A DNA stretch of 54,327 nt. Origin: Campylobacterales bacterium (lineage in GTDB: Bacteria; Campylobacterota; Campylobacteria; Campylobacterales; Sulfurovaceae). Positions 20,076 through 25,141 of this stretch are shown here, piece by piece. Location of the stretch: contig JACXUM010000011.1 of NCBI GenBank assembly GCA_014763895.1, positions 1 to 54,327 on the forward strand, read 5' to 3'. Made by a program: the position numbers and the translations under genes. Numbering within the stretch: position 1 is the stretch's first letter; each line of letters starts with the position of its first letter. The notes under the pieces are model-generated. The model was not told the DNA's origin and made no database searches. It saw nothing but the letters and a program-made list of their open reading frames with translations.

Positions 20076-21598
<1,523 letters not shown>

Positions 21599-21782
21599 AA
21601 GCAATCTCCTTGAAGTTTCTCATTGTAAGTGTAGCAGGTATCAAAAAATATGGAAAGTAGGAAATGGCGTGAATTTAATCACTTTAAACATCAAAAGGTA
21701 TAAACCGGAAGTAAATTTGATTAAAAATTAATCAATGTAGGATTTTAGGGTTATGAACAAGGTAAATCCTTGTTCATATGGA

Positions 21783-22139
<357 letters not shown>

Positions 22140-22211: not shown

Positions 22212-23525
22212 TTATGCATTCATTGCTTTTTCACCGTGGATACTCTCATCCAGACCGATCTCTTCAGTTTCTGCATCAACACGTGCACCGCCTGTCAATG
22301 CCGAAGCGATGAAGTAAACGATCACAGTACCTACCAATGTGTACAGACCTACTACGATAACTGATTCAAACTGTACGAAAAGCTGACCCATTCTGTCACC
22401 GCTCTCTTTAAGCGGACCATCCCATAGAAGATTTTTATCATCAAGAGCAAGAAGACCTGTTGCAATAGCACCCCATAGACCTGCCAAGAAGTGGATACCG
22501 AATGCATCAAGACTGTCATCATACTTAAACATTTTTTTCAATGATACAACACCGAAGAATCCGATCAGTGCACCAACGATACCTACAATGAATGCTCCAC
22601 CAACACTAACAAAACCAGCAGCCGGTGTGATGGCAACAAGACCTGCAACGATACCGGATGCAATACCAAGCAATGTCGGTTTTTTGAAGATCATCCATTC
22701 AAGCAACATCCAAACCACACCAGCAGCAGCTGTTGCAACAGTAGTAGTCAATATTGCCAAACCAGCGATAGCATTTGCACCGAATGCAGAACCACCGTTA
22801 AATCCATACCATCCAAACCAAAGCAATGCTGCACCTGCAGCAGTCAATAGGATACTGTATGGTTTCATCGCAGTTTTTGGGTAACCAGCACGTTTACCTA
22901 CCAATATAGCCAATACAAGTCCAGCCAAACCACCGTTCATATGTACAACAGTACCGCCGGCGAAGTCAAGAGCGCCCGCATCAAAAAGCAATGCACCGGC
23001 ACCACCCCAAACCATGTGCGCAACAGGAGCATAAACGATTAGACCCCATAGTATAACAACGACCAACCAAGTAGAGAACTTCATACGTTCAATCACTGAG
23101 CCAGCTGCAATTGCTACAGTAATCGCAGCAAATGTTCCCTGGAATGCAACAAACACATATTGTGGATACGTTCCAAATCCATCAAGATCTGTCCATTTGA
23201 TACCGTCAAGCATCAGATTTCCAAATCCACCCATTACATTTTGAAGCATTGCACTTTCATTTGTACCAAATGCGATTGAAAATCCTGCAATGATCCACAC
23301 AACCATCGCCACTACGAATGCACCCATAACCATCGCAAAAGTATTGAGTGTGTTTTTACTTCTTGTCATACCGCTGTAAAATAGTGCCAAACCAGCCGGT
23401 GTCATGAGAAGTACAAGCGCTGTAGAGATCATCATCCATGCTGTGTTCCCAGAGTCCAGCTTACCGTCTGCAAAAGCAGCGATAGGCATGAGCGTTGCCA
23501 AAAGAGCTAAAAGTTTTAACTTCAT
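22212..23525 (-). CDS. amtB: ammonium transporter, copy 2 (with signal peptide)
   Basis: A 437-residue ammonium channel. A cleavable signal peptide (about residues 1-19, ending AAFA) precedes the eleven-helix core. This branch matches the E. coli AmtB arrangement. The pore histidines lie in GGTVVHMNGGLAGL and FGIHFLAGLWGAIATG. The C-terminal tail ends ETEEIGLDESIHGEKAMNA and would bind PII. Sequence is clearly distinct from copy 1, so the two transporters belong to different subfamilies. AAAGGA precedes the ATG, and an unusual hairpin-forming region lies about 60-100 bases upstream. Confidence 0.96.
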   Translation of the reverse strand: MKLKLLALLATLMPIAAFADGKLDSGNTAWMMISTALVLLMTPAGLALFYSGMTRSKNTLNTFAMVMGAFVVAMVVWIIAGFSIAFGTNESAMLQNVMGGFGNLMLDGIKWTDLDGFGTYPQYVFVAFQGTFAAITVAIAAGSVIERMKFSTWLVVVILWGLIVYAPVAHMVWGGAGALLFDAGALDFAGGTVVHMNGGLAGLVLAILVGKRAGYPKTAMKPYSILLTAAGAALLWFGWYGFNGGSAFGANAIAGLAILTTTVATAAAGVVWMLLEWMIFKKPTLLGIASGIVAGLVAITPAAGFVSVGGAFIVGIVGALIGFFGVVSLKKMFKYDDSLDAFGIHFLAGLWGAIATGLLALDDKNLLWDGPLKESGDRMGQLFVQFESVIVVGLYTLVGTVIVYFIASALTGGARVDAETEEIGLDESIHGEKAMNA

Positions 23526-23585
23526 CTGTTGTCCTTTAAAATTGATTTACAATACAATAGTAACACAGATACAAATGATTTTTAT

Positions 23586-23622
23586 GCAGTTATTGATTAA
23601 TTTTTAGGCAATAACTGCCTAA
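23586..23622 (-). promoter_or_regulatory. overlapping inverted repeats upstream of amtB copy 2
   Basis: GCAGTTATTG (23586-23595) and CAATAACTGC (23609-23618) form one perfect ten-base stem. TTAGGCA (23604-23610) and TGCCTAA (23616-23622) form another that excludes the first. The site lies between the end of the PAS gene and the amtB start. It could be an operator, an attenuator or a terminator of the upstream genes. Confidence 0.4.
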
Positions 23623-23668: not shown

Positions 23669-24370
23669 TTACTGAATTAAAGGGATATCCAGTTTGATGC
23701 TACGCTCTTTGAGAGAACAGGCGATATGGGTATTTTCAGTCAGTGCCTTGATTTCATCGTCATGATCGACATAACGTCCGTTGGCCTCGATCCTCAGCTG
23801 TACCATCGATTCTCTTTTGCCTGCAATGATGATATGTTCACCGATGAGCATTCTTAATGAGATAGCAATAGAGTCAGATGCTCTGAAAGAATCCAAGGTT
23901 TTTCTCAAGAGTTTTGAAAAATTGTTCTGGTCTATTTTAAAACGCGGAATTTCCTGGTCGGTTAAAAGTGTCAGGCTATTTTGATTTTTTGTTTTAAAAA
24001 GCGCAATATTGGCTTCAAGCAGGATATTGATATCGGTTGTGATCAATTTGTCTTTTTGAATCGGTATATTTTGTCTAATACGAGGTTTGTTATAGAGCCT
24101 GATGGCTATTTGATCGTCATTTTCGTAGCCTACTGTGAGGGCATAAAAACTGAAAGCATCGTAGTTAAGTGAAACCGTTGTTGTCATAAAACCGAAATTT
24201 TGAGGGGCATAAGCCACAGCAATATCATAGATCTCTTTAGGTGTTACATGCCCAAAGAGGATCTCTGCAGCATTATTGAGATAGACGATTTTCCCTTGAT
24301 GGTCAAAAAGGATAAACGGACTGTTATCCCATTCCACAAAAGGTTTAAAATCAATCGATATGGTGTTCAT
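23669..24370 (-). CDS. PAS-domain protein, degenerate NtrB-like
   Basis: A 233-residue protein. Residues 8-75 look like a PAS domain (SPFILFDHQGKIVYLNNAAEILFG). Residues 120-233 have the outline of a histidine-kinase dimerisation/ATPase region, but the phospho-accepting His and the N, G1 and G2 boxes of a HATPase are absent. It probably senses something without kinase activity, or it acts as a partner for the preceding gene. It overlaps that AAA/Fis gene by 20 bases in the same operon. Position beside two amtB-glnK pairs hints at nitrogen control; the function is inferred. Confidence 0.6.
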   Translation of the reverse strand: MNTISIDFKPFVEWDNSPFILFDHQGKIVYLNNAAEILFGHVTPKEIYDIAVAYAPQNFGFMTTTVSLNYDAFSFYALTVGYENDDQIAIRLYNKPRIRQNIPIQKDKLITTDINILLEANIALFKTKNQNSLTLLTDQEIPRFKIDQNNFSKLLRKTLDSFRASDSIAISLRMLIGEHIIIAGKRESMVQLRIEANGRYVDHDDEIKALTENTHIACSLKERSIKLDIPLIQ

Positions 24371-25085
24371 ATATTTTTTTCCTCAATGTATTTCTATTGA
24401 TACCCAAAACTTGGGAAAGTTGAAGTTGGGAGCCGAATTTTTTAAGTCCTGCTTCTATAAGTGGTTTTTCATAAAGTTCAAGATGTTCTTTATAGGCATT
24501 GTTACCATCCATATGTTTTAAAAGATAGGTGTAGATAGCCTCTTCTATCTCTTTGGCACCCATTGCATGATACATCACATGTTCATAGACTGACTTTTTA
24601 AGGCTTTTGGTGTTGGAAGACAGGTCGATAGGAAACTCTTGCGTGTTGATATCATTTTCATCAATCATAAGATTGGTGCAGGCTTCTTTGATGAAGATAG
24701 CTCTGATATATACGGCGTCCTCAATCCTCTCTTTTAACGATGGTAGGTTGTATATGAAGGCAAAAAGATTATCGATATTTTCTTGATTATTGATATGGTT
24801 GGCTGTTGCGATGATTCTTTTATTGTCAAATTTAAGCGCATTTGGATTGCTTAGTTTTTCAAAATCGGTCAAGATCAGTTCGTCATGATTTTCAAGTGCA
24901 TTTTGAACCTCTTCCTGGTTATACCCAGAGACTACTACCGCATCCGGAAAAAGAGAACGTGCAAGAGTCTTTTTCCCACTTCCGGCTTCTCCTATAATGA
25001 TAGAAGAGACAAAAAGTGTACGCGTAAGATTGAGTCCTTTGATAATATTTTGCACTTGAGGCGATTTGGTATAAAACTGCTCCAT
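24351..25085 (-). CDS. degenerate NtrC-like AAA/Fis protein without receiver domain
   Basis: A 244-residue protein. It has a Walker A-like GEAGSGKKT at residues 32-40, a segment LPSLKERIEDAVYIR near 125 that corresponds to the arginine-finger region (LPPLRERxEDI) of sigma-54 activators, and a C-terminal Fis-type helix-turn-helix (QLSQVLGINRNTLRKKI) at about 220-238. The AAA domain is much shorter than normal, and the sigma-54-contacting GAFTGA loop is missing, as is any receiver domain. It probably binds DNA but may not activate sigma-54 RNA polymerase. The next gene encodes a PAS protein and overlaps by 20 bases. Confidence 0.65.
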   Translation of the reverse strand: MEQFYTKSPQVQNIIKGLNLTRTLFVSSIIIGEAGSGKKTLARSLFPDAVVVSGYNQEEVQNALENHDELILTDFEKLSNPNALKFDNKRIIATANHINNQENIDNLFAFIYNLPSLKERIEDAVYIRAIFIKEACTNLMIDENDINTQEFPIDLSSNTKSLKKSVYEHVMYHAMGAKEIEEAIYTYLLKHMDGNNAYKEHLELYEKPLIEAGLKKFGSQLQLSQVLGINRNTLRKKIYEHHID

Positions 25086-25141
25086 GTTGGCCTTTGAATT
25101 GTTTAATTATTAATCATATAGCAATTTGCCTAAAAGTATGT

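Follow-up and report, generated by a model that had tools for sequence, protein, structure and literature searches.

How could two proteins that resemble NtrC and NtrB, but lack the parts by which such proteins are phosphorylated and activate transcription with sigma-54, control the ammonium-transport genes next to which they are encoded? This question is raised by two adjoining genes, designated A and B, in the window, the whole stretch of 54,327 nucleotides that was analyzed. The genome to which the window belongs is of the Sulfurovum type (1.77 Mb, 99.8% complete; close relatives have been deposited as Sulfurovum) and has no sigma-54 gene, as judged from the lack of any PF04552 match. In the genome paper on Arcobacter butzleri, the lack of NtrC/NtrB-type proteins was termed 'remarkable', and RpoN was also reported to be missing (PMC2147049). 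We found no description of an A/B system in the open-access literature on nitrogen regulation in Campylobacterota, most subscription papers being outside the scope of the search. Nitrogen control in Campylobacterota lacking NtrBC and RpoN is a gap, which A and B, their operator and their regulon would fill for many lineages within the order.

The genes of the locus lie on the minus strand and are read in one direction in the order A, B, amtB1, glnK, amtB2, glnK:

24351 to 25085, minus strand: gene A, NtrC-lineage regulator of 244 residues, with a trimmed AAA+ domain and a C-terminal Fis-type helix-turn-helix
23669 to 24370, minus strand: gene B, 233 residues, with a PAS domain (about residues 12-95) and a GHKL fold devoid of kinase boxes (residues 106-233)
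22212 to 23525, minus strand: amtB1, ammonium transporter, the first gene behind A-B
21783 to 22124, minus strand: glnK copy 1 (PII protein)
20429 to 21604, minus strand: amtB2, second ammonium transporter (nearest model TIGR03644, 'marine subtype', below its cut-off)
20076 to 20417, minus strand: glnK copy 2 (PII protein), 96% identical to copy 1

The overlap of A and B by 20 bases, reported in the initial annotation, is exact, with both open reading frames in place, and the pair is indeed adjoined by amtB-glnK-amtB-glnK. On the opposite strand, gene A adjoins a gene encoding a DUF234 protein (PF03008, 25233-26075), the usual N-terminal ATPase part of which is unmatched.

Protein A had been described as keeping a P-loop, an arginine-finger-like region and a Fis helix-turn-helix in the absence of a receiver domain and of the GAFTGA loop. 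The helix-turn-helix was recovered above the Pfam cut-off (PF02954, E = 7.7e-7), and an ntrC model matched the C-terminus of the protein (E = 1.3e-10). The P-loop is kept: in the Walker A motif, residues G32 and G37 are invariant and K38 is present in 44 of the 46 relatives. The Sigma54_activat match of A itself is sub-threshold and limited to residues 6-46 (Pfam). The same model is matched by 21 of the 46 relatives (best E = 4.5e-8), and descent of A from the sigma-54-activator family is therefore clear. The missing receiver was confirmed, since no match to such a domain was obtained and the protein starts directly at the AAA+ domain (relatives of 214-255 residues). Profile alignment with NtrC1 structures revealed about 49 residues fewer between Walker A and the sensor-I strand, indicating that the GAFTGA segment is gone, as had been proposed. 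The arginine-finger claim was not upheld: in this alignment the 9-residue arginine-finger segment FREDLYYRL is deleted and only the motif LPPLxER remains. The catalytic glutamate of Walker B is also lost, D/N-F-E/D replacing DE, with phenylalanine at the glutamate position in most members. We infer that ATP hydrolysis by A is unlikely and that nucleotide binding is possible. With four aligned sequences as input, structure prediction gave a poor model of A (pLDDT 58.7), the only matches of which were Fis/NtrC DNA-binding domains; the evidence for the AAA+ half comes from sequence profiles. In two genomes, gene A is interrupted by a frameshift or a stop (L140:1428-2158 and L141:7572-8307), which may reflect either a sequencing error or a real loss.

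The PAS domain attributed to protein B by the initial annotation gave weak matches that recurred in 21 of the 49 relatives. It is separated by about 15 residues from a second domain, which Pfam did not recognize. In the predicted structure, of poor quality in the PAS half and better from residue 140 onward, residues 106-233 superposed on the catalytic domains of histidine kinases. The top match in this model was NtrB (1r62; Z = 14.3, 122 residues, 2.8 Å), tied with other kinase catalytic domains, and the Foldseek list was dominated by kinases. Comparison of the B sequence profile with solved structures returned nothing convincing, so that the kinase fold is shown only by fold comparison. There is no DHp domain, and no phosphoacceptor histidine is conserved among the 49 relatives. 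The N, G1, F and G2 boxes are absent from the alignment, in agreement with the earlier description; the position of the N box is occupied by LLRKxxxxF, and there is neither a DxGxG motif nor an ATP lid. No cysteine or histidine is conserved that would suggest a haem or an Fe-S cluster. We conclude that B is a PAS domain followed by a dead NtrB-type catalytic domain and cannot be a kinase. Together, the anatomy of A and B excludes phosphorylation of a receiver and remodelling of sigma-54.

Among 80 related genomes, A and B were both present in the same 68 and both missing from the same 12 (chance p of about 1.7e-14). Sigma-54 was not seen in 43 of the 68 A/B-bearing assemblies, which still keep both proteins. 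At the level of the phylum, B was present in 77 of 249 good genomes (E below 1e-50), and the genomes listed in this survey without a B match belong to three families (f8, f10 and f13). A contig search with A returned only three named loci, all from Sulfurovum or Campylobacterota MAGs. The survey of linkage to amtB that had been proposed showed that the order A-B-amtB-glnK is kept in nearly every locus of the same genus, with A-B directly upstream of amtB-glnK. A-B precede amtB2 where amtB1 is missing from the locus (L120, L134). In other families, A and B are divergent from amtB or glnK (L072, L090, L091) or unlinked. Pseudogene decay of A and B was rejected on the basis of their conservation over many families.

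The upstream regions of amtB1 have in common a near-invariant 17-bp palindrome of the Fis type, TGATTAAAAATTAATCA. In the window, the following elements were predicted:

25100 to 25116, minus strand: predicted operator TGATTAATAATTAAACA before gene A, overlapping a -10-like TGcTATATg (25123-25115); the presence of a site before A is kept in relatives
23594 to 23610, minus strand: predicted operator TGCCTAAAAATTAATCA, centered 77 bp before amtB1
23557 to 23565, minus strand: extended -10 element of sigma-70 type, TGTTACTAT, in the amtB1 promoter, with a hexamer starting 40 bp downstream of the palindrome center
21718 to 21734, minus strand: predicted operator TGATTAATTTTTAATCA, a perfect palindrome centered 122 bp before amtB2

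The region initially put forward for binding (23586-23622) contains the conserved palindrome at 23594-23610, although no binding data are available. A first operator candidate, AGGCA-N5-TGCCT near 23605, was dropped because it is not conserved. The palindrome fits the published Fis consensus, GNNYAAWWWTTRNNC, as expected for the helix-turn-helix of A. Both the amtB1 site of the window and the glnA site of its genome are imperfect. Across relatives, the distance from site to start is mostly 23-54 bp for A, 76-85 bp for amtB1 and 120-130 bp for amtB2. Allowing up to two mismatches, the whole genome of the window contains nine such places, versus three for a reversed control pattern. With one mismatch allowed, 17 of 18 other A/B-bearing genomes contain 2-11 sites, versus 0-1 for the reversed pattern; at this threshold no sites were found in G051, which has A and B and diverged sites, or in G048, which lacks A and B.

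The position of the palindrome relative to the -10 box is nearly always the same. In 42 of 49 amtB1 promoters, the distance from the palindrome center to the start of the extended -10 element (TGnTAnnnT) is 37 or 38 bp, which places the hexamer at 40-41 bp. Of 23 further target promoters, 20 have a TAnnnT hexamer at the same 40-41 bp and two have one at 42-43 bp, while the last has none. No sigma-54 -24/-12 core (GG-N10-GC) was detected downstream of the operator in the 49 amtB1 promoters. With a spacing of 40-41 bp, the palindrome is centered near -52 and leaves the -35 region free, the arrangement expected of a sigma-70 activator. The promoter of A itself is organized differently, the site overlapping or following the -10 region. 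This location suggests autorepression, and A, as predicted from sequence, probably regulates its own gene by repression. At the other targets, the sign of the regulation by A is inferred and is likely to be activation.

Regulon searches were performed as pattern scans, and glnA was scored with a weight matrix. In 22 of the 23 scored A/B genomes, including that of the window with TGACTATTTTTTAGGCA at 80 bp, glnA is preceded by a site at a distance of 66-83 bp from its called start; the lone exception, G034, has a weaker site at 132 bp. Five complete genomes lacking A and B (G055, G057, G060, G073 and G077) had no site upstream of amtB and/or glnA. The A/B-less genome G048 keeps a weak glnA site (score of 12.6), and since this assembly is 98% complete, A and B may have been lost recently or may fall in an assembly gap. 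The glnA site and the presence of A/B were associated (Fisher p = 3e-4). amtB carries a site even in families in which A and B are elsewhere in the genome, and two incomplete genomes (G031 and G032) have amtB sites without A or B in the assembly. Sites are also found before genes for nitrate transporters of the NarK family and for nitrite reductases of the NirA type, which are divergent and have one site each. The other genes preceded by a site encode nitrate-type ABC binding proteins (nrtA), an assimilatory-nitrate-reductase-like molybdoprotein (nasA), aspartate ammonia-lyase (aspA), an iron-sulfur/anchor protein similar to DmsBC and an OprD-like porin. Several of the names in this regulon are based on matches that fell short of the curated cut-offs. 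The predicted regulon is well supported. In contrast, the assignment of A as the protein binding the palindrome is an inference made without binding data, mainly because the sites correlate with the presence of A/B. Taken at the level of sequence, A and B very probably still run nitrogen assimilation across this order through one palindrome in sigma-70 promoters.

Additional features of the sites were observed. In the divergent narK-nirA regions L204-L208, each of the two promoters has its own operator, and the two sites are separated by 76-79 bp. A site of the form of the window's amtB1 operator lies before the OprD-like porin at L154:3429-3445 (G000:C27:16428-16444), and a site accompanies the same porin in the genomes of six relatives (L214, L215, L217, L218, L221 and L227). 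A perfect palindrome at L154:8521-8537 (G000:C27:21520-21536) follows another porin-like gene and is situated ahead of an unidentified 108-residue open reading frame and an rseP-like gene.

TyrR and VpsR are relatives of the enhancer-binding proteins that lack GAFTGA and act at sigma-70 promoters. VpsR is also treated in PMC10274813. These regulators differ from A by other N-terminal domains, other signals and the lack of a B-like partner. NtrC of Rhodobacter capsulatus and Caulobacter also lacks GAFTGA and acts at sigma-70 promoters; for the R. capsulatus protein, binding of ATP matters and its hydrolysis does not (PMC10274813). A resembles these proteins in being a likely nitrogen activator of the NtrC lineage with a deleted L1/GAFTGA loop and sites at sigma-70 promoters, the latter known for A by sequence only. 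However, they keep a receiver phosphorylated by a working NtrB, whereas A/B have no receiver, arginine-finger segment, Walker B glutamate or kinase. Compared with canonical NtrC, A shares Walker A and the Fis-type helix-turn-helix, but the receiver, GAFTGA, the DE of Walker B, the arginine finger and sigma-54 in the host are missing. B is similar to E. coli NtrB (NRII) in having a PAS domain followed by a catalytic domain, its C-terminal half matching 1r62, and dissimilar in having no DHp domain, phosphoacceptor histidine, N/G1/F/G2 boxes or ATP lid. The B-A pair is also reminiscent of NifL-NifA, in which a PAS- and GHKL-type protein that is not a kinase is the partner of an activator of the NtrC family, and NifL receives the nitrogen signal by contact with GlnK. 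Unmodified GlnK is thought to act by contact on the GHKL domain of NifL, and the C-terminus of Klebsiella NifL has little sequence similarity to GHKL domains (PMC9866876). Unlike A, NifA carries a GAF domain together with a sigma-54 AAA+ domain that is intact; in NifL, an H domain and two PAS domains are retained, whereas B has 233 residues and no DHp.

We therefore favor, as the probable explanation, a phosphorylation-free NtrC-NtrB pair that regulates nitrogen genes on sigma-70 promoters, B relaying GlnK status by contact. This reading retains the initial proposal of a simplified nitrogen regulator whose mode of action departs from the usual dependence on phosphorylation or sigma-54: receiver, phosphoacceptor histidine, GAFTGA and sigma-54 are all lacking, and the nitrogen promoters combine the palindrome with sigma-70 -10 boxes. 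A dimer of A would use its Fis-type domain to bind TGATTAAAAATTAATCA, some 52 bp ahead of the transcription start, and would activate the sigma-70 promoters of amtB-glnK, glnA, narK, nirA, nrtA/nasA and the porin. It would repress its own promoter from the site in the start region. The degenerate AAA+ domain would at most bind nucleotide as a conformational input. In nitrogen excess, unmodified GlnK would dock on the catalytic-domain relic of B, which would keep A inactive or fail to assist it; in nitrogen limitation, GlnK loaded with 2-oxoglutarate or modified by GlnD would release B. Most of these genomes encode a GlnD-like protein that could modify GlnK. G054 has A and B without a GlnD match, so that uridylylation might be dispensable in some of these bacteria. 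The GlnK-B-A contacts, and hence the PII path, are probable by inference, only the linkage to glnK being shown. We consider the chances even that PII, by binding to the dead kinase domain of B, directly controls the sigma-70 activator A in the manner of a contact switch. If true, a two-component system turned into a two-protein contact switch would be the nitrogen master switch across a Campylobacterota order. A/B offer a directly testable case of a phosphorelay and an ATP-driven activator decaying to a sigma-70 contact switch with retention of the regulon.

It remains conceivable, although unlikely, that B functions independently of PII, with its PAS domain sensing a ligand or redox state, A reading ATP/ADP and GlnK being merely a target of the regulon. 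The PAS domain is conserved in the B family, as is Walker A in A, and direct contact with PII has not been shown. However, the lack of a conserved cysteine or histidine in B for haem or Fe-S leaves the redox alternative of the initial annotation without support. The linkage to glnK, the NtrB-like catalytic fold of B and the nitrogen regulon point instead to PII; the catalytic domain is the PII-binding part of NtrB. We regard as rather doubtful the possibility that A represses the nitrogen genes in nitrogen excess and that B/GlnK relieves this repression. The site in A's own promoter is placed where a repressor would act, but in the remaining target promoters it stands ahead of the -35 region and is separated from the -10 element by a fixed distance, as for an activator.

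The loss of most catalytic residues in A and B could also mean that the palindrome serves another regulator and that A and B are decaying remnants nearby. This is very improbable in view of the intact copies over many families, their strict co-inheritance, the disappearance of the sites along with A/B, and the presence in the promoter of A of a palindrome fitting a Fis-type helix-turn-helix. Finally, Campylobacterota flagella use FlgS/FlgR with RpoN (PMC2147049), but a degenerate two-component pair of this type, whether flagellar or otherwise tied to sigma-54, can be rejected with little hesitation, since A and B are conserved in genomes lacking sigma-54, the targets are nitrogen genes and there are no -24/-12 elements downstream of the amtB1 operators.

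Two observations concern the transport genes. The glnK copies (20076-20417 and 21783-22124) are 96% identical, whereas the amtB genes beside them share just some 27% identity, a contrast that points to gene conversion or a recent duplication. In three loci (L180 in G068:C26, L181 in G052:C6, and G071:C94), the ammonium transporter is contained in a 761-residue open frame and may therefore be fused to a further domain.
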